Made by a program: the position numbers and the translations under genes. Shown here in pieces: positions 5,304-61,607 of a stretch of 64,000 bases of DNA (its first letter is position 1; each line of letters begins with the position of its first letter). The stretch lies in the NCBI RefSeq assembly GCF_000455365.1, contig NZ_HG315684.1:519611-583610 (forward strand), given 5' to 3'. Below the pieces are notes generated by a model. It did no database searches, was not told the origin of the DNA, and was given only the letters and a program-made list of their open reading frames with translations. This DNA comes from Halopiger djelfimassiliensis (GTDB lineage Archaea; Halobacteriota; Halobacteria; Halobacteriales; Natrialbaceae).

Positions 5304-6395
5304 TTACAGCGGTTCGTCGCCGTCGATGATCCGCATCGCCCGGGCGGCCAAGGCCGGGACGCGCGCTTCCATCTTCGGGTACATCGGATCGTCGCTGTTG
5401 CCCTCGAGATACCGCCGGAAGAACATCTCGCCGAGCGCGGCCAGTTTGTAGACGGCGAGCGCGCGGTAGAACCGTTCGTGCTCGAACGCGAACCCGGTTC
5501 GCTCCTCCCAGCGGGCGACGAGTTCGCGCCGGGTCGGATACCCGTCCCGCGCCATAAACTGGGTCGTGAGTTCGGGAACCGCGGGGTCGGGGTCTTTCGG
5601 ATCGCGCCAGTACGAGAGCATCCAGCCCAGATCCGCCCGCGGGTCGCCGAGCGTCGCCATCTCCCAGTCGAAGACGCCGACGAGTTCCGGCAGTCGGGCC
5701 GTCTCGTCCGCCGGGTCGGTCTCCGCCGCGAACATGACGTTGTCGAGTTTGTAGTCGCCGTGGACGAGCGCCTTCGGGTGCGTCTCGGGGACGTTCGCCC
5801 GAAGCCAGTCGCCGACCTCGTGGAGGTCCGGCACCGCCCGTTCGGTTTCGGTCACCTCGAAGGCCCACGAGAGCTGTTTCCCCCAGCGATCGACCTGCCG
5901 CTGGGTGTATCCCTCGGGGCGGCCGAACGCCTCGAGTCCGATGGCCTCGATATCGAGGTCGTGGATCGTGGCCAACGTGTCGGCGAGTTCCTCCCCGATC
6001 CGCCGGCGGGACTCGGGGTCGGCGAAGCGGTCGGGCTCCCCCTCGCGGAGGACCGCCCCCTCGAGTCGCTCCATGACGTAGAAGTCGCTGCCGATGACGT
6101 CGTGATCGTCACAGGCGAGGACCGGATCGGGAACCGGCACGTCGGTGTCGGCGACCGCGGTCAACACGCGGTATTCCCGGAGGACGTCGTGGGCGGTGTC
6201 GGCGGTTTCGCCCGGCGGCGGTCGCCGAACGACCAGTTTCCGGTCGCCCCAGGTGACAAACAGCGTTTCGTTCGAGTGGCCTTCCTGATGTCGCTCGACC
6301 GCGTAGTCGTCCGCGTCGCCGAGGTGGGTCTCGAGGTACGACGCCAGTGCGTCCTCGTCGACGAGCCGGTCGTAGTAGGAGTCGTGCTCGCTCAT
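5304..6395 (-). CDS. Phosphotransferase family protein (APH / ACAD10-like kinase fold)
   Basis: The 363-residue protein has an aminoglycoside-phosphotransferase fold. The N-lobe has a substrate or nucleotide segment GHSNETLFVTW and the lysine in KLVVRRPP. The catalytic loop is LVHGDYKLDNVMF (HxDxxxxN) and the metal-binding segment is GVFDWEMATLGDPRADLGW. These features match the subfamily linked to acyl-CoA dehydrogenases (ACAD10/11 type), which phosphorylates hydroxyacyl substrates, rather than antibiotic-resistance enzymes. The neighbouring 3-hydroxyacyl-CoA dehydrogenase supports a role in hydroxyacid or fatty-acid breakdown. Substrate is inferred only. Confidence 0.88.
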   Translation of the reverse strand: MSEHDSYYDRLVDEDALASYLETHLGDADDYAVERHQEGHSNETLFVTWGDRKLVVRRPPPGETADTAHDVLREYRVLTAVADTDVPVPDPVLACDDHDVIGSDFYVMERLEGAVLREGEPDRFADPESRRRIGEELADTLATIHDLDIEAIGLEAFGRPEGYTQRQVDRWGKQLSWAFEVTETERAVPDLHEVGDWLRANVPETHPKALVHGDYKLDNVMFAAETDPADETARLPELVGVFDWEMATLGDPRADLGWMLSYWRDPKDPDPAVPELTTQFMARDGYPTRRELVARWEERTGFAFEHERFYRALAVYKLAALGEMFFRRYLEGNSDDPMYPKMEARVPALAARAMRIIDGDEPL

Positions 6396-6599
6396 GGTTT
6401 CGGTGATAGTGGCCGAATCGGCGGCCGTCGGCTCGCGGTGGCTTTCGACATGACGTACGGTACCATAACGCCCCTCGTTAACGAAAATAGTTACGCTAGA
6501 TTTTCCATTTTACAATGTTCAAACCTGTGTGGAAAAACGGCACCCATCCCCCGTCGGAAAGTCGCGCCGTTTACGGTACGGCGGGTTCCACGTCGAGTC

Positions 6600-7628
6600 G
6601 TGACGGACGATCGACGAGCGAGAACGGGGGGTATCTCGCGGCCGCAACTGCTCCGTATCGGAGCCGGGTTCGCCGTCGCAGTCGTCCTCCTGCTCGTTCT
6701 CGCGGTCGGGATCGGACTCGAGGAGCTTCGGGAGACGCTCTCGAACGCGGCCCTCGAGTGGGTCGTGGTCGCCTGTCTGTCGACGGGGCTGTGTTTCGCA
6801 GCCTGGACGCGGGGATGGCAGCTCGTTCTCGGCGTCGCCGACATCGACGAGTCGTTTTCCCGGCTCTTCGTGACCTATCTGGCGGCGATGTTCGCAAACT
6901 CCGTGACGCCGATGGGGCAGGCAGGCGGCGAGCCGTTTATCGCGTACGTCCTCTCGACGGAGACGGGTGCGAGCTACGAGGACAGCCTCGCGAGCGTCGT
7001 GACCGCCGATGCGCTGAACCTGGTGGCGTCGTTCAGCCTCGCAACGGTCAGTCTGGGCGTGCTCGTCTGGCGGATCGACCTGCCCGGTGCGGTCGAGCCG
7101 ATCGCCGGAGCGGTTGCCGTCGTCGCCGTCGGTATCGTGGCCGTCGCGACGGTGGGATGGCGGTTCCGACCCGAACTCGAGCGATCGGTTAGCGGGTTGC
7201 TGGTACCGGTCATTCGCCGGCTCCCCGGCGTGACGGTCGCGGGTATCCGCAAACGAGTGGCCGAACTGCAAACCGCGTTCGGCCGCATCGCCGACGAACC
7301 GCGATTGTTGGTTCGCGTGTTCGCGTTCGCGTATCTCGGCTGGGCGCTCTACGTCCTCCCGCTGTACTTCGCCGGTCGCGCGTTCGGGATCGCCGTGGAT
7401 CCCATCGTCCTGTTTTTCGTCGTCTCGGCGAGCATGCTCGCCGGCTACATCCCCTCTCCCGGCGGACTCGGGAGCATCGAGGCCGTTTTGACCGGGCTGT
7501 TGGTTGCGCTGCTGGCGCTGGGATCGACGGAGGCGTACGCCGTCGCTCTCACGTACCGCCTCTCGACCTACTGGCTCGCCGTCGTCGCCGGCGGCCTCGC
7601 GACGCTCGCGCTCGTCCGCCGGTGGTAG
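6600..7628 (+). CDS. UPF0104/YbhN-like integral membrane protein (LPG synthase TM-domain family)
   Basis: The 342-residue product is almost entirely hydrophobic, with about eight transmembrane helices starting at LRIGAGFAVAVVLLLVLAVG. Family motifs are seen in TPMGQAGGEPFIAY and in IPSPGGLGSIE near the C-terminus. Relatives are the flippase-like membrane domain of lysylphosphatidylglycerol synthase, found alone here without the synthetase domain. In archaea such proteins are thought to move lipid or glycolipid intermediates, but that is inference. The start is a GTG at 6600 (MTDDRRARTGG); the same frame is open for about 2 kb upstream only because it mirrors the antisense genes there. Confidence 0.85.
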   Translation: MTDDRRARTGGISRPQLLRIGAGFAVAVVLLLVLAVGIGLEELRETLSNAALEWVVVACLSTGLCFAAWTRGWQLVLGVADIDESFSRLFVTYLAAMFANSVTPMGQAGGEPFIAYVLSTETGASYEDSLASVVTADALNLVASFSLATVSLGVLVWRIDLPGAVEPIAGAVAVVAVGIVAVATVGWRFRPELERSVSGLLVPVIRRLPGVTVAGIRKRVAELQTAFGRIADEPRLLVRVFAFAYLGWALYVLPLYFAGRAFGIAVDPIVLFFVVSASMLAGYIPSPGGLGSIEAVLTGLLVALLALGSTEAYAVALTYRLSTYWLAVVAGGLATLALVRRW

Positions 7629-7815
7629 GGCAGCCCGTTCGTCACGCGTCGCTATAGGAACAACTGGCCCCGTTGATAATTTTCAGGTGGTTTAGTTTGG
7701 AGCACTCGGCCACTACACGTGTGTACTGAGCAGAAACGCGAGGATAGAATTATACTGCCGCTGTTCGACTTCTCGATCCGAGCACGATCACCAGTGAAAT
7801 GAGAGCGAGACGATG

Positions 7816-8133
7816 TTATCGAAAGAGCGCGACCAGCGGATCGAGACAGCGAGATAAAAACTGCTCTACGCGGTTTTCCGCCGCATAATACCAAATTCCA
7901 AGAATAGTAACTGCCTGCAAGGCGATTACGACAGATAGGCCGGACACAGAGAGACCGATATAAGTAATGACGTCTGGCCCGTACAAAGCAATTCCAATCA
8001 TCAGTATGAGATTAGCCACACCAGCGCCGAAGGATTGCAGCGACTTTTGTGGATGGTGATTCGAGGTCACAAAGGCAGTAGTATAGACACTTAAGACCAC
8101 TACGACAAACTGGAGTTCGGACTCAGTAACCAC
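7816..8133 (-). CDS. Small hypothetical membrane protein
   Basis: The 105-residue product has about three predicted membrane segments: LQFVVVVLSVYTTAFVTS, VANLILMIGIALYG and SVVIALQAVTILGIWYYA. A charged C-terminal tail follows. Base composition is lower in G+C than its neighbours, which suggests a recently acquired or fast-evolving gene. No family is recognised. It sits alone between the UPF0104 gene and the HAD gene. Confidence 0.5.
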   Translation of the reverse strand: MVTESELQFVVVVLSVYTTAFVTSNHHPQKSLQSFGAGVANLILMIGIALYGPDVITYIGLSVSGLSVVIALQAVTILGIWYYAAENRVEQFLSRCLDPLVALFR

Positions 8134-8172
8134 ACAACCTCGTTACAAATAGGGAATGAAAAGTACTACCAT

Positions 8173-8292
8173 CTACGGGCGGAGCAGGCGAAGTGCCTCG
8201 GGGTCGTTCGGAAGACCGACGGCCTCTCGAACCACGTGACCCCGAGACGGTTCACACTTAGTTACCCCGACCGTTCCAATATCGACGCACAT
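8173..8292 (-). CDS. Possible 39-residue small protein or gene remnant
   Basis: An ATG at 8292 opens a 39-codon frame ending in TAG at 8173. Its C-terminal half (HVVREAVGLPNDPEALRLL) reads like a genuine haloarchaeal protein with acidic and leucine-rich content. It could be a micro-protein or the 3' end of a decayed gene. There is no clear ribosome-binding site, and function is unknown. Confidence 0.3.
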   Translation of the reverse strand: MCVDIGTVGVTKCEPSRGHVVREAVGLPNDPEALRLLRP

Positions 8293-8316
8293 CGTGCGAT
8301 CGGGTGTGATTGATTT

Positions 8317-9084
8317 TCAGTGGCTACGATAGCCCTCTCGCTTCCCGTCGACGATTTCGAGCACCTCCGGCGGGGACTCGATCCGGAAGGAAACGGCCGG
8401 CCCGTCTTCGGCACCGAAGGCGACGCCGTGCATTCCGACGGCGGCGGCCCCGTTCACGTCGTGTTCGTACCGGTCGCCGATCATCAGCGATCGGTCGGGA
8501 TCGACCCCGGCCGCCTCGAGTGCGGCCTCGAAGATCGCGGGGTCGGGTTTGGTCCGACCGACCGCTTCGGAGGTCGTGATCGTATCGAAGCGCTCGCGGA
8601 CGCCGAACGCCTCGAGCAGCCGTTTGCCGGCCCGGTCGTCGACGTCGCTGATGACGCCGAGGTGGAGGTTCCGGTCCGACAGGCGTTCGATCGTCTCGAC
8701 GGCACCCGGAACGGGTTCGATCGCGGCCCGGACGGCCTCGTCGAACCGCGGTTTCCACGCCGATTGCGGGACCCGCTCGCCGACGACCGCCGCGACGCCG
8801 CTGGCGTAGGCCTCGCGTGCGGCGCGGAACTCGGTTCCCTCGCGCTCGCTGAAGTGGGTGCCGACCGCCGTCCGCCACGTATCGACGGCCGCCGCGACCG
8901 AAACGTCGAGGTCGTGGCGATCGACGAGCGTTGCGACGAACTCGGCGTGAGCGGCCTGTACCGACTCGAGGTCGAGGATGACGCCGCCGATGTCCCAGAA
9001 GACGGCCTCCCAGTCGGTATTCGCGGGAGACTCGTCTCGAGCGGGCGTTGCGTCCGGGCCGTTCCGTGGAGGTGCGTCCGTCAT
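8317..9084 (-). CDS. HAD superfamily hydrolase
   Basis: The product has 255 residues. Motif I is FWDIGGVILDL, motif II is the serine in GVISDVDD, and motifs III/IV are KPDPAIF and MIGDRYEHDVNGA. Motif I has Gly where many HAD phosphatases have the second Asp (D-x-G rather than D-x-D), as in the YihX-like group. The cap domain lies between motifs I and II. It probably removes phosphate from a small metabolite in the cytosol, substrate unknown. It stands alone and is divergent from the SDR gene. Confidence 0.88.
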   Translation of the reverse strand: MTDAPPRNGPDATPARDESPANTDWEAVFWDIGGVILDLESVQAAHAEFVATLVDRHDLDVSVAAAVDTWRTAVGTHFSEREGTEFRAAREAYASGVAAVVGERVPQSAWKPRFDEAVRAAIEPVPGAVETIERLSDRNLHLGVISDVDDRAGKRLLEAFGVRERFDTITTSEAVGRTKPDPAIFEAALEAAGVDPDRSLMIGDRYEHDVNGAAAVGMHGVAFGAEDGPAVSFRIESPPEVLEIVDGKREGYRSH

Positions 9085-9263
9085 CGGTATCGGATGCGTG
9101 AGGACGGTGTCGATCGGGCGGTCGGAGCGACCACTCCTGTGCCGTCCACACGCAGTTGCCGGAAACGATCGGTTTCAACTCACTTAACGATAGGGACGTC
9201 CCCGAACCGAAATCGGACCCACTTTTATTACGACCCGACGTGTACCGATCGATATAGCTAACA

Positions 9264-9302
9264 ATGGTAAATCAGTGGGCGGTTTCCGCAGGTGAGCGGT
9301 AA
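9264..9302 (+). promoter_or_regulatory. Possible 12-codon leader ORF with Shine-Dalgarno overlapping the SDR start
   Basis: ATG at 9264 opens a 12-codon frame (MVNQWAVSAGER) whose TAA overlaps the ATG of the SDR gene by one base (TAATG). A purine-rich GGTGAG at 9291-9296 lies inside it, at the right distance to serve as ribosome-binding site for the SDR gene. It may be a translated leader that couples initiation, or chance. Confidence 0.3.
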
Positions 9303-10078
9303 TGAGCACGACCCAGTTCAGCATCGACGGCGACGTCGCCGTCGTCACCGGCTCCTCGAGCGGGATCGGGAAGGCGATCGCACAGCGGTTCGCCGCGGAC
9401 GGCGTCGACGTCGTGGTCTGTTCGCGCGAGCAGGGGAACGTCGACCCCGTCGCCGACGAGATCAACGAAAGCGATCGGGCCGGGACGGCGCTGGCGGTCG
9501 AGTGTGACGTCACCGACCGCGACGCCGTCGAGGCGCTCGTCGAGGCGACCGTCGAGGAGTTCGGCGGGATCGACGTGCTGGTCAACAACGCCGGAGCCTC
9601 GTTTATGGCCCAGTTCGGCGACGTGTCACCGAACGGCTGGCGGACGATCGTCGACATCAACCTCCACGGCACCTATCACTGTACCCACGCCGCCGCGGAG
9701 TACCTGAAAGACGGCGGCGGGTCGGTGATCAACCTCGCGAGCGTCGCCGGCCAGCGGGGCTCCCCGCTGATGAGCCCCTACGGCGCGGCCAAGGCGGCCG
9801 TCATCAACCTCACCACGACGCTCGCCTTCGAGTGGGCCGACGACGGCGTCCGCGTCAACTGTATCGCGCCGGGCTTCGTCGCCACGCCGGGCGTCGAGAG
9901 CCAGATGGGCGTCGCAGCCGACGAGATCGATCGCGAGGAGGTCGCCCGCCGGATCGGGACCGCCGAGGAGATCGCCGACGTCACGCAGTTCCTCGCGAGT
10001 CCGGCCGCCTCCTACGTCGTCGGCGAGACCATCACCGCACAGGGCGTGCCCCAGATCTCCGAAGAGACCGACGTCTAG
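9302..10078 (+). CDS. SDR family oxidoreductase
   Basis: The 258-residue protein is a classical short-chain dehydrogenase/reductase. It has the nucleotide motif TGSSSGIGKAIA, the NNAGAS motif, INLASVAG for the catalytic serine region, and YGAAK as the catalytic Tyr-x3-Lys. The C-terminal part (GFVATPGVES, ASYVVGETITAQG) is typical of FabG-like glucose/3-oxoacyl reductases. It catalyses NAD(P)-dependent alcohol/ketone interconversion, substrate unknown. The start at 9302 is preceded by GGTGAG. It is followed 124 bases downstream by an F420-dependent oxidoreductase on the same strand. Confidence 0.93.
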   Translation: MSTTQFSIDGDVAVVTGSSSGIGKAIAQRFAADGVDVVVCSREQGNVDPVADEINESDRAGTALAVECDVTDRDAVEALVEATVEEFGGIDVLVNNAGASFMAQFGDVSPNGWRTIVDINLHGTYHCTHAAAEYLKDGGGSVINLASVAGQRGSPLMSPYGAAKAAVINLTTTLAFEWADDGVRVNCIAPGFVATPGVESQMGVAADEIDREEVARRIGTAEEIADVTQFLASPAASYVVGETITAQGVPQISEETDV

Positions 10079-10202
10079 CACGAACTCCGGTTTCCGCACG
10101 GGTTTTCCATCCGCCATCCGGTGACCCGGACGAAATGAACGGGAATAATTCCGTCTTCGGTTCCCATACACCCAAAAGGACGTACCACGTTGTCGAAAGA
10201 CG

Positions 10203-11207
10203 ATGACAGATAGAGAGGTCCACCTTCCCGTCGCCGCACAGCCGACAGTCGACTCGATCGTCGACTACACCCAACGGGCGGAAGACGGCGGATACGATTG
10301 CGCGTGGCTGCCGGAAACGTGGGGCCGCGACGGCGTCACCGTCCTGACGGCGATGGCCGAACGGACCGACTCGATCGGCGTCGGCTCGAGCATCTTCAAT
10401 ACCTACTCCCGGTCGCCCGCCCTGCTGGGCCAGACCGCGGCGACGCTGCAGGAGGTTTCCGATGGCCGGTTCCACCTCGGACTCGGACCGAGCGGCCCCG
10501 TCGTCGTCGAGAACTGGCACGGGATGGAGTACGGCAATCCGCTCAAGCGAACCCGCGAGACCGTCGAGATCGTTCGGCAAGTGCTCTCGGGCGAGTCCGT
10601 CGACTACGACGGCGACTACTTCGACCTGTCCGGGTTTCGGCTCCGCTGTGAGCCGCCCGAGCCGACTCCGCCGATCGAAGTCACCGGAATGGGTCCCAAA
10701 GCCGTCGAACTGGCCGGTCGCTTCGCCGACGGCTGGCACGGCATCATGCTCACGCCCGGAGGCGTGCAGTCCCGGCTCGAGGACATCGAACGCGGAGCCG
10801 AACTGGGCGACCGCGACCCGGACGACGTTCGGGTAACCGTCGGCGTCAACTGCTGTGCGCTGGGCGACGCCGAGCGCGCGCGCGACCTCGCCCGCCAGCA
10901 CACCGCCTTCTACATCGGCGGCATGGGGACGTTCTACCGCGACGCGCTCGTTCGACAGGGGTACGACGTGGCCGACGAGATCCACGACGCCTGGCAGGCG
11001 GGGGACCGCGAACGCGCGCTTTCGTTGCTCGACGACGACCTCCTCGGCGAGCTCTGTGCGGCGGGCGATCCCGAAACCGCCCGCGAGGCGCTGGCCGAAT
11101 ACGAGACCATCGACGGCGTCGACGCCGTCGCCGTCAGCTTCCCACGTGGGGCGGACGAAGACGAGATCCGGGAGACGATGGCCGCGTTGGCACCCGACGC
11201 CGCCTGA
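10203..11207 (+). CDS. F420-dependent LLM-class oxidoreductase
   Basis: The 334-residue protein has a luciferase-like (LLM) TIM barrel. Motifs include CAWLPETWGRDGVTVLTAM, GSSIFNTYSRSPALLGQTAA, RFHLGLGPSGP and ADGWHGIMLTPGG, which match the haloarchaeal NP1902A-type coenzyme F420-dependent family. It would transfer hydride between F420 and an unknown substrate. The C-terminal part holds an acidic helical segment. The start is the first ATG after a TTGTCGAAAGACG leader. It forms a run of same-strand redox genes with the SDR upstream. Confidence 0.9.
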   Translation: MTDREVHLPVAAQPTVDSIVDYTQRAEDGGYDCAWLPETWGRDGVTVLTAMAERTDSIGVGSSIFNTYSRSPALLGQTAATLQEVSDGRFHLGLGPSGPVVVENWHGMEYGNPLKRTRETVEIVRQVLSGESVDYDGDYFDLSGFRLRCEPPEPTPPIEVTGMGPKAVELAGRFADGWHGIMLTPGGVQSRLEDIERGAELGDRDPDDVRVTVGVNCCALGDAERARDLARQHTAFYIGGMGTFYRDALVRQGYDVADEIHDAWQAGDRERALSLLDDDLLGELCAAGDPETAREALAEYETIDGVDAVAVSFPRGADEDEIRETMAALAPDAA

Positions 11208-11285
11208 TCCCGGCTCGAGAGATCCCCGCTCGAACCGCCGGCGGACGGCGACAGGTACAAGCCGCGTATCCACCCAGTTCGTGGT

Positions 11286-12263
11286 ATGCCCGGGAAAGTT
11301 CCACCCGACGACCTGTTGGCACACGTGTTCGATCGAACGGGGACCGACGCGGACGAGACGGTGTTGCAGGGGCCGGCCGACGGGGAAGACGCCGCCGCGA
11401 TCGACTGGCCCGGCGGCCGCCTCGTCGTTAGCTCCGATCCGATCTCGCTTGCGGCCTCCCGGGTCGGCTCCCTCGGCGTCTACGTCGCCTGTAACGACGT
11501 CGCCGCGTCGGGGGCCGATCCCCGCTGGCTGACCGTCGTCGTCATGCTCCCCGACGAGACGACGCCGCTCGAGGAGATCACGGCCGATCTGGACGCCGCC
11601 GCCGACGCCGTCGGCGCGTCGATCGTCGGCGGCCACTCGGAGTACGTCGACCAACTCGAGCGCCCGCTCGTCTCGCTGACCGCGATGGGGGCCACGGAGG
11701 CGTTCGTTCCGACCGGCGGGGCCGAACCCGGCGACCGGGTCGTCCTCACGAACGCCGCGGGGATCGAGGGCACCGCGATCCTCGCCGGCGACTTCGGCGA
11801 CGACCTCGAGATCGACGACGCGATCCGCGCCCGGGCGGCGGCGTTTCTCGACGAGATCAGCGTCGTCCCCGACGCCCGCGTCCTCCGCGAGTACGCGACA
11901 GCCATGCACGATCCCACGGAGGGAGGGGTCGCGGCCGGCCTGCTCGAGATCGCCCGCGCCTCGAACGGGCGGCTCGAGGTCGACCGCGAGGCGGTGCCGG
12001 TCCGTCCCGAGACCGAAACGCTGTGTGCGGCTGCCGGCGTCGATCCGCTCCGGATCTTCGGCTCCGGCGCGTTGCTCGCGACCGTCCCCGACGACCGACT
12101 GGCCGACAGTCTGGCCGCACTCGAGGACGCGGGGATCGACGCCGCCGAGATCGGCGTCGTCCGGGCGGGCGATCCGGAACTCCTGCTCGACGGGGCGTCG
12201 ATCACCGACCCCGTCGAGGACGATCTGTACCCGCTCTGGGCGGCGGCCGAAGACAAAGCGTAG
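11286..12263 (+). CDS. AIR synthase-related (HypE/ThiL/PurM-like) protein
   Basis: The 325-residue protein has the PurM/HypE two-domain ATP-binding fold. Near the N-terminus AAIDWPGGRLVVSSDPI and NDVAASGADPRWLTV form the ATP/phosphate site, followed by GGHSEYV and, in the C-terminal domain, HDPTEGGVAAGLLEIARAS. These are characteristic of AIR synthase-related proteins close to HypE. No hydrogenase genes are nearby, so a role as hydrogenase maturase is unlikely; it may phosphorylate or dehydrate another substrate. It lies on the same strand as the F420 oxidoreductase upstream and the Tat metalloprotein downstream. Confidence 0.85.
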   Translation: MPGKVPPDDLLAHVFDRTGTDADETVLQGPADGEDAAAIDWPGGRLVVSSDPISLAASRVGSLGVYVACNDVAASGADPRWLTVVVMLPDETTPLEEITADLDAAADAVGASIVGGHSEYVDQLERPLVSLTAMGATEAFVPTGGAEPGDRVVLTNAAGIEGTAILAGDFGDDLEIDDAIRARAAAFLDEISVVPDARVLREYATAMHDPTEGGVAAGLLEIARASNGRLEVDREAVPVRPETETLCAAAGVDPLRIFGSGALLATVPDDRLADSLAALEDAGIDAAEIGVVRAGDPELLLDGASITDPVEDDLYPLWAAAEDKA

Positions 12264-53041: not shown

Positions 53042-53474
53042 GCCGAGAGAGAGAGGAACGAAGGGGGGGTTCGACCCAAGTCGCCGGTCGAGCCGGCGCG
53101 GTCGAGTGATGGGGTGAGGTGGTGGGATGACACGCCAGCGGAACGATGGTCGGATACCAACCATCACGTCCGCTGCACTCGCCACGTATCACGGCTCGAT
53201 GCTTATCGCTAGTGCCAAAATACGTTGGGACGGGACCGTCCCGAGCAGTCCCGGAACCGATCCAGTTCGGTCGGAGACGACCTGTATTAGCGTGGAATAT
53301 CCGGTCTTCCATCGAGCGGTGAATTGTGGAGTTGAGTGACGCGATTCACGCCCGCCGTTTCATGGCGGGGTTCTCTCGCTGTTTAAAGATAGCTACTTCG
53401 GGCCGTAATACGGCTCTCCGGACGTGACGAACCGATGGGCAGATTCAAGGGGCCGCCTCGAGAGACGGGCAGAC
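53042..53474. other. Intergenic region with hairpins and possible insertion-element end
   Basis: The 433-base gap contains a gggacgg/ccgtccc hairpin near 53227-53244 and a second structured stretch at 53322-53385. A frame at 53127-53339 could encode 70 residues but has no family-like sequence. No transposase is left. Confidence 0.45.
53322..53385 (+). mobile_element. Possible orphan IS200/IS605 (IS1341-type) right end
   Basis: gtga...tcac flanks a short loop at about 53335-53348, followed by cccgcc/ggcggg (53350-53355 and 53363-53368) with a seven-base loop, then gttctctcgctg. This order (small hairpin, then attcacgcccgcc stem and gttctctcg) is the layout I associate with haloarchaeal IS1341-type right ends. 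No TnpB reading frame remains. Confidence 0.4.
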
Positions 53475-53975
53475 ATGTTGCGTTCGTTCGACGGGATGGA
53501 GCCGCGGATCGCCGACTCGGCGTACGTCGACGAGGCCGCGGTCGTTATCGGCGACGTCGTGATCGAGGCCGACGCCAGCGTCTGGCCGAACGTCACGCTC
53601 CGTGGCGACCACGGGACGATCGTCGTCGGCGAAGGGGCAAACGTACAGGACAACGCCGTCCTCCACGAGGACGCCGAACTGAAGCCGTCCGCGACGGTCG
53701 GTCACAGCGCCATCGTCCACGACGCGACCGTCGAATCGGGTGCGCTCGTCGGCATGAACGCCGTCGTCCTCGACGGAGCGTCCGTCGGCGAGGGTGCCGT
53801 CGTCGCCGCCGGCAGCGTCGTGACGGAGGGGACGACGGTCCCTCCTTCGACGCTCGTCGCCGGCGCGCCCGCCGAACCGAAAGCCGAGGTCGACGACCCC
53901 CATCTCGAGGCGACGGCCGACCGGTACGCCGAACTCGCGACCCGGTACGAGGAGACGTCCGACCGCCTCGACTGA
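53475..53975 (+). CDS. Gamma-carbonic-anhydrase family protein
   Basis: The 166-residue product has left-handed beta-helix hexapeptide repeats: AAVVIGDVVIEADASVWPNV, GVGEG-like turns, and His residues in RGDHGTIVVG, LHEDAELKPSATVGHSAIVH. These could bind a Zn/Fe ion as in Cam/gamma-CA. C-terminal acidic helices follow. ATG at 53475 (MLRSFDGMEP) is preferred over an upstream ATG at 53424. Confidence 0.87.
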   Translation: MLRSFDGMEPRIADSAYVDEAAVVIGDVVIEADASVWPNVTLRGDHGTIVVGEGANVQDNAVLHEDAELKPSATVGHSAIVHDATVESGALVGMNAVVLDGASVGEGAVVAAGSVVTEGTTVPPSTLVAGAPAEPKAEVDDPHLEATADRYAELATRYEETSDRLD

Positions 53976-54055
53976 CTGCCTCGACCGACCGCTCGACCGC
54001 TGGGTCGTTCCGGGCGAGGGAAACCCTGATACAGCTACCGATCGAACCGGCTGGT

Positions 54056-54526
54056 ATGAGCGATCAGCCGTGGACGGATCGGATCGTCGGCGAACGAATG
54101 ACCGTCGATCAGGAGTTCTCCTCGCGGATCGCGAGCTCGGAGTTTTCGAGCCAGCAGTGGAGCCTCATCATGACCGCGACGGAGTTCGAGATCGAACGGC
54201 CCACCGATCCCGAAAAGGCCCGGATCGTCGCCAACACCGAGAAGGTCGACCAGATCATCCCCGAACTCGAGGACGTCCAGTCGGGGATGGGCGCGATGGG
54301 CGGCCCCGCCGGCGGCGTCGGCGACTCGGGTTCGTCCGGCGGCATCGTCGACTCGATCAAAGGGGCGCTCGGAATGGGCGGTGACGGCGGCGACGATCAC
54401 GAAAACCAGCTAGCGGCGGCCGAACGGCTCACCCAGGAGTACGCCGAGGAGTTACAGTCCCACCTCGAGTCAAAGGGGCGGTGGGAGTCGGTCCGGGAGG
54501 CCGCTGCCGCCGACGCGAGCGAGTAA
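54056..54526 (+). CDS. DUF5799-like haloarchaeal protein
   Basis: The 156-residue protein has MSDQPWTDRIVGERMTVDQ, EFSSQQWSLIMTATEFEIE and a Gly-rich linker (GAMGGPAGGVGDSGSSGG) before an acidic C-terminal helix. This layout is familiar from haloarchaeal DUF5799 proteins; the assignment is from memory. Function is unknown. Confidence 0.72.
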   Translation: MSDQPWTDRIVGERMTVDQEFSSRIASSEFSSQQWSLIMTATEFEIERPTDPEKARIVANTEKVDQIIPELEDVQSGMGAMGGPAGGVGDSGSSGGIVDSIKGALGMGGDGGDDHENQLAAAERLTQEYAEELQSHLESKGRWESVREAAAADASE

Positions 54527-54729: not shown

Positions 54730-54838
54730 ACGTCGGCGTTCGTCGCCGATGGGCAAAAACACCACGGGGGAAACGACCGAACGACCGCGCTCGGTGCAAG
54801 CCACAGCACCTTTAGGGACGCTTCCCGACCGTAGTGGT

Positions 54839-55126
54839 ATGACCGACGAAGTAGATACGATCACCTTCTCGATCAACGGCGACGACACGGCAGACGAGAT
54901 CACCGTTCCTGCGGGGCTCGTCGACCTCGTGGCGGAGGGTGACCAGACCGCCGCCGAAACCGTCGGCGACGTCGTGTTGCTCTCGTTTGCCAGCCGCGCA
55001 CACCACCTCGTCCACCACGGCGACGGCGCGGACGAGGAACTCGAGGCACAAGAGGAGCGCGTGATGGATCTCTTCGAGGAGCGGTTCGGCGTGACGTTCG
55101 GCGAAGCGACCGGCCACCAGCACTGA
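54839..55126 (+). CDS. Conserved haloarchaeal hypothetical protein
   Basis: The 95-residue soluble product reads MTDEVDTITFSINGDDTADE and has AHHLVHHGDGADEELEAQEE near the end. The His-rich run (AHHLVHH) may bind metal, but no catalytic motif is clear. ATG at 54839 is the first plausible start. It is divergent from the antitoxin-like gene. Family unknown. Confidence 0.7.
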   Translation: MTDEVDTITFSINGDDTADEITVPAGLVDLVAEGDQTAAETVGDVVLLSFASRAHHLVHHGDGADEELEAQEERVMDLFEERFGVTFGEATGHQH

Positions 55127-55221: not shown

Positions 55222-58200
55222 TTACTCGTCGGTTTCGGCGGTCCCGTCGGTTTCGTTCCCCTCGGCCGCCGGCTCGGGCGCGTCCGAAGCGGCGGGTGAG
55301 TCGGGCACGGCGGATGCAGCCGGGCCGTCCGGAGCGGCCGGTGGTTCGGGGGCCGGAGTTACGGGCGGTTCAGGGTCCGCCGGAGCAGGGGGCTCCGGCG
55401 ACGTCGGTGGCTCGGGTTCCGGCTGCTCGGGGTCGGCGATCCCCTCGATCGTCACCGCCGTAGCGACGGTCTCGTTCCCGCTCGAGACCTCGAGCCCGTA
55501 CTCGCCGGGCTCGAGGCCGTCCGTTTCGCCGGTCAGCGGAACGGATTCTGTCGCCCCCGGTTCGAGCGAAACCGACGCCGAATCGACGACGACGCCATCG
55601 ACGGCGAGTTCGATGACCTGTGTCCCCGCCTCGTCGCCGACGTTCTCGATGGCCGCATCGACCTCGAGCGGGACCCCGCGTTCGACGGGATCGTTCGTAT
55701 CGGCGATCGAGACGGCGAACGCCGCGGGTTCAGTGGGTGTGATCTCACCCGCAGGGTCGGTCGCTGCGGTGAGCACCTCCTCGTAGTCGTAGTTGTCCAT
55801 ATCGACCGCCCAGACGAGCCGTTCGTCGTCGGTTTCGGGCGTCCACTCGACGGTGAACTCGCCGTCCCCCGGCTCGAGTTCGGTGATCGGTTCGTCGGCG
55901 GTCGTCCCCTCGATGAACTCGCTGCCGACGAGCAACGCGGCGTCGTTCGGGTTCTCGTAGCCGAAGGTCACTTCGATGGCGTCCGCGGTCGAGGTCGTCT
56001 CCTCGACGGTGATCGCGGGCAGTTCGGGGCGGACCTCGGCGATACACCGACCGGCGTCGGGGTTCGGGTGGTCGATCTCGCCGGGAGTCGCGTCCGGCGA
56101 GACGATGCCGGTGATCGCCGCGCCGAACGCGCCTTCGGGCACCTCGACGATCGCACCCTCGTCCGTTTCGGAGACGGTAAACGCCGTCCCGGTCTCGAAG
56201 ACGATCGTCCCCTCGAGAGGTGCGTCGACGTCCTCGCCGACCGTGATCGCGTACTCGCCCATGGTGTTGCCGAATCCGCCGGACTCGTAGAAGCCGGTGG
56301 CGACGATGATCGTGTCGCCGTCCTCGAACGACCCCGTTACCTCGGCGCGCGAACAGTCGACGAACTCCACGGCGAACGCCTCGGACCGGTCGTACTCGCC
56401 GGCGGGATCGGTCTCGGCGCGAACCGGGTCGTCGTAGCCGAAGTCCGCCATCGGAACCGCCCAGACGAGTCGTTCGTCGTCGGTTTCGGGCGTCCACTCG
56501 ACGGTGAACTCGCCGTCCCCCGGCTCGAGTTCTTCGACCGGTTGGTCGGCCGTCGTTCCCGCGACGAACTCGCCGCCCGGAAGCGCCGCATCGTTCGGGT
56601 TCTCGTAGCCGAAGGTCACGGCGAAGCCGTCGGCGATTTCCTCGACGGTTTCGACGGTCGTCGTCGGCCGTGCCGGCTGGATCGCATCACCACACTCGAG
56701 TGCCGCCGGCGGCGTCGCCAGCGTCGATTCGGCCTCGGCCGGCTGGTTGATCCACGGGACGATGAACGAACCGAACCGTCCCTCGTCGGGCACCTCGATG
56801 ACGACGGTTTCCGCGTCGACCTGCCGGATATCGAACGCCTCGCCGACCGCCATCACGACCGTCCCCGTGAACGGGGCGTCAACTTCCTCGCCGGCCGTGA
56901 CCCCGCTGTAGAACGCATCACCGGGACCGGCCGAATCGTACCAGAGCGTCCGCGGATACAGCGTCGTGCCCTCCTCGAGCGTTCCCTCGATCTCGACCCG
57001 GGTGCAGTCGGCGTACTCGACGAACAGATCGTCGACCGTCTCGTCGAGGTCGTAGTCGACCGTCTCGGTCGCGAGCGACTCGCCGTCGGCCGCCGCGACG
57101 ACGGTCACCTCGAGCGTGGCTCCGTCCTCGAGCGCCGGCTCCAAGCCGATCGACGCGTTCTCGAGGGACTCGTTCGCGGCGATCGGATCGGTCCGGCCGA
57201 GTTCCTGGCCGTCCTCGTCCGTGACGACGACGGCGTACTCGACGGACGCGATCGCCTCGTCGACGGTCAGCGACGCGCCGGACCCCGCCTGATCGCTCAC
57301 GGCGAGCGTCGCCTCGGGTTCGTCCGGTCGGTCCTCGACGGTAACGAACGCGCCGTCGAGGGCCGGCGAACCGCTCGCAGTGACGTACGGCTCGTCCGCG
57401 GCCCCGTCGGTGGCGGCGTACCGGAACGTCTCGTCGTCGGTCGTATCGTGGTGGACGGCGGCGACGATCGGCTGACTTTCCTCCAGCGGTTCCTCGAGCT
57501 CGATTTCGAGGAATTCGTGGTTGCCCGGCTCGAGATACGGTGAGACGCCGCGGATTCCATCGGGATCGACATCGACCGCGATCCCCTCGTAGACCGCCAC
57601 GAACCCGCCCTCGGAAAGGGTTATCTCGTCGACGACCACGCTGTCGCCGGCGGACGTCTGCTCGGAGACGGTGATCGTGGCCGTCCCCTCGCGTTCGTCG
57701 ACGTCCTCGAGTCGCTGGACGAGTTCGATCTCGACGTGCTGGACGAGTTCCGCCCCGTCGTCGATCCCTTCCCGGCCGGCGTAGCTCGCCGCGTCGGCCG
57801 CTGTCGACTCCGCCAGCGTCCGGAGTTGCGTGACGGTGAGTCGCTGGCGCTGGACGGCTCGCGCCGTTTCCCGGCTCGTAACCGCCGCAGCCGACCGGGT
57901 CTGTGTTGCCGTCACCCGCCGGGACTGGGAGAGAACCCCCGCAGCGCTGCCGCCCGCGAGGGTCTGGATCTGGACGGCGTCGACGACCTGTTGCTGGACG
58001 ACCGCGCCCTCGCCGGCACCGGCTGCGGCGGCCCGGACGTGCTCGACCTCGAGTCCCTGCTGGACCGTCGACTCGACTACGCCTTTCGCTGCGCCCGCCG
58101 CTGCATACTGGATCTGCGTGACCGAAACGGCCTGTTGCTGAGCGAGCACGCCGCCGGCAGCGCCGTCAGCCGCCGCCTGAAGCTGTTCGACGGTCGCCGT

Positions 58201-59250
58201 CTCGGCCGCCGCGATCGATCCGGTTGCAGCGCCGAACGACGCGGCGTGAATCCGATCGATCGTGATCCGCTGGCGCTGCTCGAGCCGGATCGTCCGGATC
58301 GACTGCAACGACCCCATACCCGCACCGCGGGCCACGGCCTGAGTCTGCTCGACCGTCGCCGCCTGCCGCTGGACGAGCGCCCCCTTGGCCGCCCCGCTGG
58401 CGGCCTCCTGTACTTCTTTCATCGTCACCCGCTGGGACTGTTCGGCCGTCACCCGCTGCTGTCGTTCGACCGCGGACACGCTGCCCTCGAGTGCGCCCGC
58501 ACCAGCGCCCGCCGCGGCGTGAAAGAGGTGCGAGAGCGTGACCCGCTGGCGCTGCTCGACCGTCAGCCGCTGGTACTGCTCGAGGACGCCGTAGGCACTC
58601 CCCTGTGCGGCTTCCCGGACGAGTGGGGTCGCGTCGTCGGTCGTCCCGGCCTCGCTTGCGGCACCCGAAGCGCCACCACGGGCGGCGGCCCGAATCCGGT
58701 CGACGGTCGCGCGGTGTGCCTGAGCGAGCGCACCGTGTGTCCCGCCCCACGCTGCGCTCTGGAGTTGGCTCGCGCTGGCGGTCCCGCGGTGGTCGAGCGC
58801 GCCGTCGATCGCTCCCGCGACCGCATGCTGAATCTGGGTCGCGTTCACCCGCTGTTCCTGCACCAACGCACCGTGGACCGCACCCGCCGTCGCCGCCTGT
58901 ACCTGCTGGGCGTCGGCTTGCAGGTGTTGTGTGACTGCTTCGCCCGCCCCGTCGATCGCGGCCGCTCGCTGTTGCTGGGTCACTTCGATGCCCTGTGTCT
59001 CGACGAGCGCGATGCCCTCGTCGACGCCGTCATCGACGGCCGTCTCGTGTTCTTGCGTTCCGTTCGTCCCCGCGTCCCTCGCGTCGGGCGTCATCGGTGT
59101 CGTCTCCGCCTCGGCCGGTGGTCCCTCCACCACACCGGTAGTTCCGTCGCGAACGGCCGATCCCGACACTCCGGCAAGGAGCGGCAGCGCGACGACGCTC
59201 GTGATCGCGGCGACGGCGACCAGCACGACCGCGGAGCCCGTTTTCCTCAT
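55222..59250 (-). CDS. Large exported surface protein with 23-residue glycine-zipper repeats
   Basis: The 1342-residue protein has a Sec-type signal peptide (AVVLVAVAAITSVVALPLLA), then an acidic spacer. Residues about 91-492 consist of roughly 17 repeats of about 23 residues, consensus TQIQxAAxGAxxGALxQxQxVTV, several with an eight-residue VEQRQRVT insertion. Residues 524-640 form a DUF7282-like beta domain (VVVDEITLSEGGFVAVYE), and 745-1172 hold two copies of a YENPNDAAL domain with near-identical stretches. A CARDB-like domain (1175-1268) follows, and a Pro/Glu-rich tail closes the protein. There is no clear membrane anchor at the end. The start is ATG 59250, where the signal peptide begins. 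Function is unknown; adhesion or envelope structure is likely. Confidence 0.85.
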   Translation of the reverse strand: MRKTGSAVVLVAVAAITSVVALPLLAGVSGSAVRDGTTGVVEGPPAEAETTPMTPDARDAGTNGTQEHETAVDDGVDEGIALVETQGIEVTQQQRAAAIDGAGEAVTQHLQADAQQVQAATAGAVHGALVQEQRVNATQIQHAVAGAIDGALDHRGTASASQLQSAAWGGTHGALAQAHRATVDRIRAAARGGASGAASEAGTTDDATPLVREAAQGSAYGVLEQYQRLTVEQRQRVTLSHLFHAAAGAGAGALEGSVSAVERQQRVTAEQSQRVTMKEVQEAASGAAKGALVQRQAATVEQTQAVARGAGMGSLQSIRTIRLEQRQRITIDRIHAASFGAATGSIAAAETATVEQLQAAADGAAGGVLAQQQAVSVTQIQYAAAGAAKGVVESTVQQGLEVEHVRAAAAGAGEGAVVQQQVVDAVQIQTLAGGSAAGVLSQSRRVTATQTRSAAAVTSRETARAVQRQRLTVTQLRTLAESTAADAASYAGREGIDDGAELVQHVEIELVQRLEDVDEREGTATITVSEQTSAGDSVVVDEITLSEGGFVAVYEGIAVDVDPDGIRGVSPYLEPGNHEFLEIELEEPLEESQPIVAAVHHDTTDDETFRYAATDGAADEPYVTASGSPALDGAFVTVEDRPDEPEATLAVSDQAGSGASLTVDEAIASVEYAVVVTDEDGQELGRTDPIAANESLENASIGLEPALEDGATLEVTVVAAADGESLATETVDYDLDETVDDLFVEYADCTRVEIEGTLEEGTTLYPRTLWYDSAGPGDAFYSGVTAGEEVDAPFTGTVVMAVGEAFDIRQVDAETVVIEVPDEGRFGSFIVPWINQPAEAESTLATPPAALECGDAIQPARPTTTVETVEEIADGFAVTFGYENPNDAALPGGEFVAGTTADQPVEELEPGDGEFTVEWTPETDDERLVWAVPMADFGYDDPVRAETDPAGEYDRSEAFAVEFVDCSRAEVTGSFEDGDTIIVATGFYESGGFGNTMGEYAITVGEDVDAPLEGTIVFETGTAFTVSETDEGAIVEVPEGAFGAAITGIVSPDATPGEIDHPNPDAGRCIAEVRPELPAITVEETTSTADAIEVTFGYENPNDAALLVGSEFIEGTTADEPITELEPGDGEFTVEWTPETDDERLVWAVDMDNYDYEEVLTAATDPAGEITPTEPAAFAVSIADTNDPVERGVPLEVDAAIENVGDEAGTQVIELAVDGVVVDSASVSLEPGATESVPLTGETDGLEPGEYGLEVSSGNETVATAVTIEGIADPEQPEPEPPTSPEPPAPADPEPPVTPAPEPPAAPDGPAASAVPDSPAASDAPEPAAEGNETDGTAETDE
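55805..55881 (-). repeat. 77-base direct repeat, copy A
   Basis: This copy lies inside the second YENPNDAAL module of the large exported protein. It matches 56456-56532 at 76 of 77 bases. Such identity within otherwise diverging modules suggests recent duplication or gene conversion. Confidence 0.75.
56456..56532 (-). repeat. 77-base direct repeat, copy B
   Basis: This copy lies about 650 bases from copy A, in the first YENPNDAAL module. It encodes the DGEFTVEWTPETDDERLVWA stretch of that module. Confidence 0.75.
57775..58980 (-). repeat. About 17 tandem 23-residue (69-base) glycine-zipper repeats
   Basis: Each unit has a GAxxGA-type small-residue helix flanked by Gln-rich ends, for example TQIQHAVAGAIDGALDHRGT and EQLQAAADGAAGGVLAQQQ. 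Most units are exactly 23 residues; three carry extra EQRQRVT segments. The tract is highly regular at the protein level but diverged at the DNA level. Confidence 0.85.
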
Positions 59251-59613
59251 GGACGCCCTCGCTGCAATCGACCCGTCACACAGCGCTGTCCCGGTCGTGA
59301 CGATCCCGCCTTCCGGCCCGCACCGGGGGAATGCGATCGCCGTCCCGGTTTCACCCTGCGATACTCCGCCTTGCCGAACTGCGTACACCCGGAGCGCATT
59401 CGTTTCACACCACCCGACCGAACCGACGCATAAGCGCGCCGGTCGTTTCGGCTCCACCGCTGACACAATCCCCGATTACGGCCGGCGAACCGATCGCGAT
59501 CGCCCACGTACCGTCGCCCCGTTCGAACCGATCGACCCGACGGAATGACAGCGGAGAGACACCGCGCCCTCGGAAACCGAAGTTTTGATCCGGGTTTACG
59601 AGAGAGGTGGCGT

Positions 59614-60189
59614 ATGGAAACCGACCAGCACTCGGTGGAACTCGTCGACGACACCGTCGTCCGACAGTTCGCTCGGGCGGCCCTGCTCGCGGCGCTGATG
59701 GGGGTTGCGTCGATGATCCCGATCCCGATCTCGGCGGTTCCGGGAACGATGCAACTGCTCGTGGTCTTTCTGGCGGGACTCTTTCTCGGCCCCGTCTGGG
59801 GAACGCTCTCGATGGTGTTTTACCTCGGGGCCGGCGCGCTCGGAGCGCCGGTGTTTGCCGGCATGAACGGCGGGTTCGGGTACCTTCTCGGAAACACCGG
59901 CGGCTTTCTCCTCTCGTTTCCGGTCGGCGCGCTGCTCGTCGGAGCCGTCGTCCACCGCGGCCGTACCGTCCGTGATCCGGCGGAGACGACCCTGCCGGTC
60001 CTGCTGTGTGCCCTCGCCGCGGCGACTGTCGTCGTCTACCTCGCCGGGTTCTCGTGGTTCGCGTGGGTGACGGAGACGACCCTCGCCGAATCGTTCACCG
60101 TCGTCACGCTGCCGCTGATCCCCGGCGACCTGCTCAAGATCGCCGCCGCCGTCGCCATCGTCAAAAGCGGCCGGATCGATCCAACGTAG
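59614..60189 (+). CDS. bioY: Biotin ECF transporter S component BioY
   Basis: The 191-residue membrane protein has six helices and the BioY motifs SMIPIPISAVPGTMQLLVVF, LGAGALGAPVFAGMNGG and GYLLGNTGGFLLSFPVGALL. It binds biotin. The ATG at 59614 (METDQHSVEL) is chosen because the longer frame upstream is not homologous. It is seven bases from bioM. Confidence 0.95.
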   Translation: METDQHSVELVDDTVVRQFARAALLAALMGVASMIPIPISAVPGTMQLLVVFLAGLFLGPVWGTLSMVFYLGAGALGAPVFAGMNGGFGYLLGNTGGFLLSFPVGALLVGAVVHRGRTVRDPAETTLPVLLCALAAATVVVYLAGFSWFAWVTETTLAESFTVVTLPLIPGDLLKIAAAVAIVKSGRIDPT

Positions 60190-60196
60190 CGACCGG

Positions 60197-60895
60197 ATGA
60201 TCGAGTTCCGATCCGTCTCCTACGCGTTCGGCGACGTCCCCGTTCTCGAGGACGTCTCGCTGACGATCGACGACGGCGAATTCGTGCTGCTTGCGGGCGC
60301 CAACGGGAGCGGCAAGACGACCCTGTTGCGACACTGCAACGGGCTGTTGACGCCCGACGCCGGCGACGTCCTCGTCGACGACACGCCGGTCGACGAAAAT
60401 CCCATCGCCGCCCGCTCGAGCGTCGGCATGGTCTTCCAGCACCCGCGCGATCAGTTCGTCGCGGCGACGGTCGGTGCCGACGTCGCGTTCGGCCCCGAAA
60501 ACCTCGGCCTCGACCGCGACGAGATCGACCGCCGGGTGACGACCGCACTCGAGGCGGTGAACATGGCGGGCCGCGAGGACGAACGAATCGAGGCGCTTTC
60601 GGGGGGCGAACAGGCCCGCGTCGCCATCGCTGGCGCGCTTGCGATGGCCCCGATGCATCTCGTCCTCGACGAACCGTTCACCGGGCTAGACGACCGCGCG
60701 CGCCGGTCGGTACTGTCACACCTCGAGTCGCTGACCGCCGACGGAACCGGCGTATTGCTCGCTACTCACGACCTTCGTGACGTCCTCGAGCTCGCCGACC
60801 GCGTCATCGCGATGGGTGACGGTCGCGTCGTCGTCGACGACCCACCGGAGCAGGCATGCGAGGAACTCGCGGCGCTCGACGTTCGCGTCCCGTGA
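60197..60895 (+). CDS. bioM: ECF transporter ATPase (BioM/EcfA)
   Basis: The 232-residue ABC ATPase has Walker A GANGSGKTT, the Q-loop FQHPRDQFVAA, signature LSGGEQARVAIAGAL and Walker B LVLDEPFTGLDD, and ends with LLATHDLRDVLELADRVI. It powers biotin uptake together with BioY and BioN. Confidence 0.95.
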   Translation: MIEFRSVSYAFGDVPVLEDVSLTIDDGEFVLLAGANGSGKTTLLRHCNGLLTPDAGDVLVDDTPVDENPIAARSSVGMVFQHPRDQFVAATVGADVAFGPENLGLDRDEIDRRVTTALEAVNMAGREDERIEALSGGEQARVAIAGALAMAPMHLVLDEPFTGLDDRARRSVLSHLESLTADGTGVLLATHDLRDVLELADRVIAMGDGRVVVDDPPEQACEELAALDVRVP

Positions 60896-60902
60896 CACAC
60901 CG

Positions 60903-61607
60903 ATGCTCACCTACGAACCCGACGAGACGTTCGCCCACCGGCTCGACCCACGCTCGAAGCTAGCGGTCCAGTTCGGCTTCGCCGCGACCGCACTGGCACA
61001 CACCGGTCCTCGAGCGTTGCTCGTCCTCTCCGTCGTGACGCTGGTCGCGCTCGCCACAGCACGGGTCCCGTTGGGGAACCTGCTCTATGCCTACCGGTTC
61101 GCAGTCGTCGTGCTCGCCATCGCTCCGCTGGCCGCGGCGGCGACGATCGGCGATCCCTGGATCGACCTCGAGAGAGGACGCGCATCCGCCCGGGCGAGTT
61201 ATCGCGTGCTCCTGATCCTGTTTGTCAGCGCTGCGTACGTTCGCTCGACGCCGGTCAGACACTCGCGAGCCGCGATCCAGCGGACGATCCCGGGAAAACC
61301 GGGTCAGCTTCTCGGTATCGGGATCGCGCTCGTCTTCCGGTTTCTCCCGGTACTCAGGAGTGACATGCGAACCATCCGCGACGCGATTGCCGCGCGTCTC
61401 GGAACCGAACGAAGCGTGCTCGAGCGCGCCAGTACGCTCGGTCTGCTCGGCCTCTCGCGGGCGTTCGATCGAGCGGATCGCCTGTCGCTTGCACTGCGGG
61501 CGCGGTGTTTCGCGTGGAATCCGACGTTACCCGCGCTTTCGTTTTCGCGACTGGACGTTCCAGTTCTGGGAGTCGCCGTCGGGCTAGCCCTTTCAGCACT
61601 CCTGTGA
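60903..61607 (+). CDS. bioN: ECF transporter transmembrane protein (BioN/EcfT)
   Basis: The 234-residue EcfT protein has about five helices. The two coupling regions contain Ala-Arg-Gly-type pairs, seen in RDAIAARLGTERS and LRARCFAWNPT. It starts seven bases after bioM and completes the bioYMN operon. Confidence 0.9.
   Translation: MLTYEPDETFAHRLDPRSKLAVQFGFAATALAHTGPRALLVLSVVTLVALATARVPLGNLLYAYRFAVVVLAIAPLAAAATIGDPWIDLERGRASARASYRVLLILFVSAAYVRSTPVRHSRAAIQRTIPGKPGQLLGIGIALVFRFLPVLRSDMRTIRDAIAARLGTERSVLERASTLGLLGLSRAFDRADRLSLALRARCFAWNPTLPALSFSRLDVPVLGVAVGLALSALL

Follow-up and report, generated by a model that had tools for sequence, protein, structure and literature searches.

We examined a 64,000-nucleotide stretch of the Halopiger djelfimassiliensis genome (hereafter the window) and found on its minus strand a complete gene (55222-59250) for a protein of 1342 residues, with its start Met at 59250 and its stop at 55222. 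The open reading frame translates into a protein with a hydrophobic N-terminus, in agreement with the original prediction of an exported repeat protein of this length. Residues 1-32 (MRKTGSAVVLVAVAAITSVVALPLLAG...; 59155-59250, minus strand) are a Sec-type signal segment, recognized from the translation and from the orthologues, which keep its TSVVALPLLGG motif; the segment may be either a cleaved signal or an N-terminal anchor. A Gln-rich glycine-zipper repeat tract, delimited by autocorrelation, a unit profile and the orthologues, covers residues 85-505 (57736-58998, minus strand), and the coordinates first given for it were right, if short of this full extent. Beyond the tract, on the same strand, lie a DUF7282 domain (residues 524-637; 57340-57681; PF23951, E = 1.4e-34), an acidic region that reads in direct translation as two tandem copies of ~210 residues (residues ~742-956 and ~960-1171; 55738-57027), a CARDB domain (residues ~1180-1256; 55483-55713; PF07705, E = 5.8e-6) and a Pro/Glu/Ala-rich C-terminal tail (55222-55428). 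A Pfam search with the whole protein returned DUF7282 alone, and the excised CARDB domain scored 26.9 bits against a PF07705 gathering score of 22.7 and is matched in 14 of 15 orthologues, so that both domains of the original prediction hold. The tail is acidic and without a hydrophobic segment, and the window protein has no C-terminal membrane anchor such as marks the S-layer or ArtA-anchored class of surface glycoproteins.

The repeat gene is flanked upstream by three divergent genes encoding 192, 232 and 233 residues (59611-61607, plus strand), which from their sequences we take to be bioY-ecfA-ecfT-like, and downstream by a convergent DUF7545 gene (54749-55126, plus strand). Synteny places the upstream genes in 24 of 25 orthologue loci and the DUF7545 gene in 23 of 25; with these neighbors retained, the locus is vertically inherited. 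A DUF5799 gene (53435-54526, plus strand) also lies beside the repeat gene, together with the DUF7545 gene, and regions homologous to both are kept in most orthologue loci. At the edge of the window, an S-layer-type surface glycoprotein gene with a halo_sig_pep signal (TIGR04207; 62598-64000, plus strand) runs off the end; it has several paralogues in the same genome, and in relatives it shows no synteny with the repeat gene.

Anatomy and conservation of the repeat tract

The tract is rich in Ala (23%), Gln (13%) and Gly (10%), and its strongest autocorrelation falls at a lag of 23 residues (0.221, compared with a maximum of 0.190 in 300 shuffles). The 23-residue unit has the consensus QxVTVxQIQxAAxGAxxGALxQx. 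A position-specific unit profile scored 13 units of the window protein above a threshold of 12 bits, the best score on shuffled tracts being 7.8; the ends of the tract add about three degenerate units, near residues 100, 457 and 480. The period originally predicted is therefore borne out, while the count of about 17 comes down to about 16, with GxxxG intact in 13. Successive units are spaced by 23, 23, 23, 25, 31, 38, 23, 31, 23, 23, 25 and 23 residues. Three insertions of eight residues had been proposed; two are exact, giving 31-residue spacings between the units at residues 217 and 248 (58507-58602, minus strand), where the addition is a duplicated QxVTVEQx segment, and between those at residues 309 and 340 (58231-58326, minus strand), and the third is instead an addition of 15 (38-residue spacing, residues 248 and 286; 58393-58509, minus strand). 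Tandem Repeats Finder detected no DNA-level tandem repeat in the tract, and the repeat is therefore old and its copies diverged; a recent expansion of a DNA repeat was considered and dropped.

Among 26 orthologues drawn from 23 genera, conservation of the protein is highest in the tract, with a mean site entropy per 40-residue block of 0.77-1.12 over residues 81-480 compared with 1.11-2.19 elsewhere. Both GxxxG glycines were Gly in 2054 of 2054 cells (79 orthologues by 13 units), a figure that describes conservation among orthologues rather than among all units, as the 13 units were chosen for having GxxxG in the window protein. Gln occupied unit positions 1, 7 and 9 in 2756 of 3081 cells of the same set. 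Units at the same position are 73% identical between orthologues while units inside one protein are only 46% identical, and the unit order was therefore fixed before the family diversified. Indels fall between units, and some units have conserved residues of their own, for instance WGxxHGA. A disordered, low-complexity spacer would fit the Gln-rich composition and the low AlphaFold confidence described below; we consider it most improbable and dropped it, given that the tract is conserved more strongly than any other part of the protein and has glycines that do not vary, fixed unit spacings and these unit-specific residues.

Distribution and domain partners of the module

A search of 61 genomes recovered the full-length, collinear tract from 25 relatives of the same family, at 53-62% identity; none of the 24 genomes sampled from other families had it. 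A profile built from 26 orthologues matched 109 of 392 Halobacteria genomes, comprising 83 of 101 Natrialbaceae genomes and 26 genomes in four other families (f4, f5, f7 and f17). The repeat is thus shared by relatives, and the absence from close relatives that would have spoken against the original prediction was not seen. In a phylum-wide draw of 393 genomes, matches were confined to the order. Most Natrialbaceae genomes with the protein have one copy. Scanning genome contigs with a single sequence recovered one relative, in Salinadaptatus halalkaliphilus (Natrialbaceae), and plasmids yielded one, in Halomicrococcus gelatinilyticus; neither the viral contigs scanned nor the phages searched contained a relative.

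In the other families the module again stands after an export signal, Sec-like or, in L059, L104 and L105, Tat-like, and before domains that differ from protein to protein. These include TSP3 repeats with CAP (L057) or TSP3 without it (L107, L102 and L103), NosD/beta-helix domains (L089, L090, L093, L094 and L102), up to three copies of DUF7282 (L091 and L094), CARDB (L104) and Thr-rich linkers (L060 and L095). In five relatives (L057, L091, L094, L102 and L108) the C-terminus is a hydrophobic segment accompanied by basic residues, likely an anchor. The unit profile shows that the spacing of the first units (23, 23, 23, 25/26) is kept in many families, which suggests an ancestral multi-unit module. 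The L057 protein (5369-11518, G033) has 2051 residues in all and also holds many repeated Asn-Pro-Asn-type units, and L058 (261-3047, G030) encodes an acidic form of the module in which GxxxG is preserved and most glutamines are lost.

Two variants depart further from the consensus. L096 (4656-6905, G153 contig 6) encodes an Asn-rich, Asn/Val-alternating repeat (NQNVNINVIQNAALGAAQGAV, for example) in which all 17 units have Asn at unit positions 2, 4 and 6; the Asn at position 10 belonged to the search pattern itself. At full length this variant was found only in the L096 genome among 292 searched. L105 (6098-7009, G169 contig 2) encodes a short Tat-type protein with three units and then a Lys-rich stretch, and its tail bears Q/S/V-alternating segments (QSQSVDVSQSQ stretches) that lack GxxxG and the helix half of the unit.

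Our database searches gave no name to the repeat. None of the 26 members had a Pfam match in the tract at E 0.01, the glycine-zipper Pfam models included; NCBIfam matches were below cut-off and outside the tract; PHROGs had no match to it; and a PDB profile search with the tract returned nothing at E 1, the PDB sequence searches overall giving one insignificant match. A literature search found no description of a 23-residue repeat of this kind and no mention of DUF7282. As the original prediction had suspected, the 23-residue repeat is a family without a description in the databases and literature searched. DUF7282/CARDB haloarchaeal exoproteins have the same C-terminal domains as the window protein, but the repeat tract is an additional N-terminal module outside those families.

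Fold and role of the tract

The reading that we find somewhat more convincing than its denial is that the tract folds into a structural module, a scaffold or stalk of about 16 tandem helical units in haloarchaeal secreted or surface proteins. Each unit would form one helix of ~18 residues (unit positions 5-22), its start marked by a capping signature of V3, S/T/N/D4, Q7 and I/V8. The helices would pack closely on their neighbors through the invariant G14xxxG18 and the alanines and leave one exposed stripe each (positions 2, 6, 10, 13, 17 and 21), the conserved glutamines (1, 7, 9 and 22) presumably tying turns and helices together, and neighboring units, running antiparallel, would pair into hairpins of 46 residues, close in size to those of HEAT and ARM repeats.

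Residues S, T, N and D are typical of helix N-caps, and position 4 is one of these four in 77-88% of units; V3 together with I/V8 is compatible with a hydrophobic staple, and Q7 with a capping box. Prolines fall mostly at positions 4-6 (66 of 76, mostly in one unit). When residues were grouped into substitution classes, the seven most variable positions were 2, 6, 10, 13, 17, 21 and 23, the first six of which line up as a single stripe on a helix, and the periodicity over positions 2-22 peaked at 95-100 degrees (p = 0.02-0.04), a test that is supportive rather than independent as the classes were chosen after the data were seen. A first Fourier test on the entropy of unit positions was not significant (p = 0.79). 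Covariation between units, from a shallow alignment (Neff 33), showed a slight excess at unit distances of 2 and 4 but not of 1, too weak to choose between folds, and charge correlation was uninformative. In both AlphaFold runs nearly every unit received a helix, at about positions 5-22, and no strands were drawn, with pLDDT values of 36.5 and 42.2 that are too low to support any fold; the input comprised the sequences of the window protein and one relative, and with so few a helix may simply be favored. Of the original prediction, the support goes to a conserved, probably helical repeat tract shared by related proteins; a rod, solenoid or bundle is a possible arrangement of its helices.

A strand-containing fold is the main competitor to the helical solenoid. 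Here each unit would be a beta-strand (QxQxVTVxQxQ) followed by a short helix (AAxGAAxGAL), stacked into a beta-alpha solenoid whose sheet carries glutamine ladders and is backed by glycine-packed helices. Raw conservation does alternate strictly in a strand-like manner between conserved and variable from position 20 to position 11 in two unit sets (longest-run p ~0.015), the alternation is preserved through the insertion of eight residues, and the unit has a VTV core. The Asn positions of the L096 variant resemble an Asn ladder, and the L105 tail bears the presumed strand segment by itself. However, the alternation weakens under substitution classes, and the S/T/N/D of position 4 and the proline tolerated at position 6 would both lie mid-strand; the supposed strand-helix junctions have no typical turn residues (Gly, Pro or Asn), and AlphaFold, at its low confidence, shows no strands. 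We therefore regard the beta-alpha solenoid as rather unlikely and favor an all-helical fold over a strand-containing one by a factor of about two.

Curlin (CsgA) repeats are 22-23 residues long, rich in Gln, Gly and Ala and belong to an exported protein, and in all these respects they resemble the tract. The tract differs in its GxxxG, helix-like half and in its collinear, frozen units; the curlin repeat profile matched neither the window protein nor the variants L096, L105 and L060, and no curli secretion genes were noticed near the repeat gene. Polymerization of the tract, in which glycine zippers and glutamines would join molecules into a surface fiber or sheath with either fold, would suit the Gln/Ala/Gly-rich composition, the invariant GxxxG and the joining of a constant module to variable displayed domains. 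It would also suit the low net charge of the tract, on average -5 per 100 residues compared with -27 in the remainder of the same exported proteins, a value that also speaks for the folded module, as it suits a tightly packed domain or one in contact with partners. Yet we saw no sequence evidence for intermolecular contacts, and a single copy in most genomes of the family, together with the frozen order of units, is no less compatible with an intramolecular fold. With the failure to match curlin, this makes polymerization improbable, and the oligomeric fiber envisaged in the original prediction found no direct support.

Among described helical systems, glycine-zipper proteins share with every clear unit of the tract the GxxxG core, for which helix packing is only predicted here; the tract units are too polar for a transmembrane location and form a long tandem array. 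We dropped a transmembrane pore, a property of glycine zippers to which the original prediction had pointed, as unlikely because the presumed helices are polar (Gln 13-20%, several charges). The alpha-solenoids HEAT, ARM, TPR and ANK are built from tandem helical units (PMC11514114), as proposed for the tract, and two tract units of 46 residues come near the ~40-residue HEAT hairpin (PMC11514114). Unlike these, the tract has a period of 23 residues, corresponding to one helix, is secreted and has a Gly/Ala/Gln core in place of large hydrophobics; it had no sequence match to their repeat profiles or solved structures. Of their superhelix of stacked antiparallel helix pairs, the AlphaFold models of the tract show the helices, at low confidence. 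Methanosarcina surface proteins also carry tandem repeats, of which the first named in PMC2447325 are 42 and 45 residues long, lengths that differ from that of the tract unit.

Our best inference is an extracellular structural scaffold, in which the constant N-terminal folded module may present variable adhesin-like C-terminal domains such as DUF7282, CARDB, TSP3 repeats with CAP, or a beta-helix. We suggest more tentatively that it could be a new solenoid architecture, either of single glycine-zipper helices or of strand-helix units with glutamine ladders, serving as a low-charge haloarchaeal scaffold in near-saturated salt on which surface domains are swapped.

In kind, the family is an ordinary tandem-repeat scaffold of surface proteins, and it is its conservation that is unusually rigid: that two glycines are unchanged in all copies tested, across 79 orthologues, implies a demanding fold. 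The repeat family, undescribed in the databases and literature searched, is conserved across most of the Natrialbaceae and occurs in several other haloarchaeal families. The acidity of the tract is far below that of the remainder of its proteins, so its structure would be informative about how scaffolds outside the cell remain soluble and rigid in near-saturated salt, and many haloarchaeal exoproteins now called hypothetical could be annotated as one modular family.
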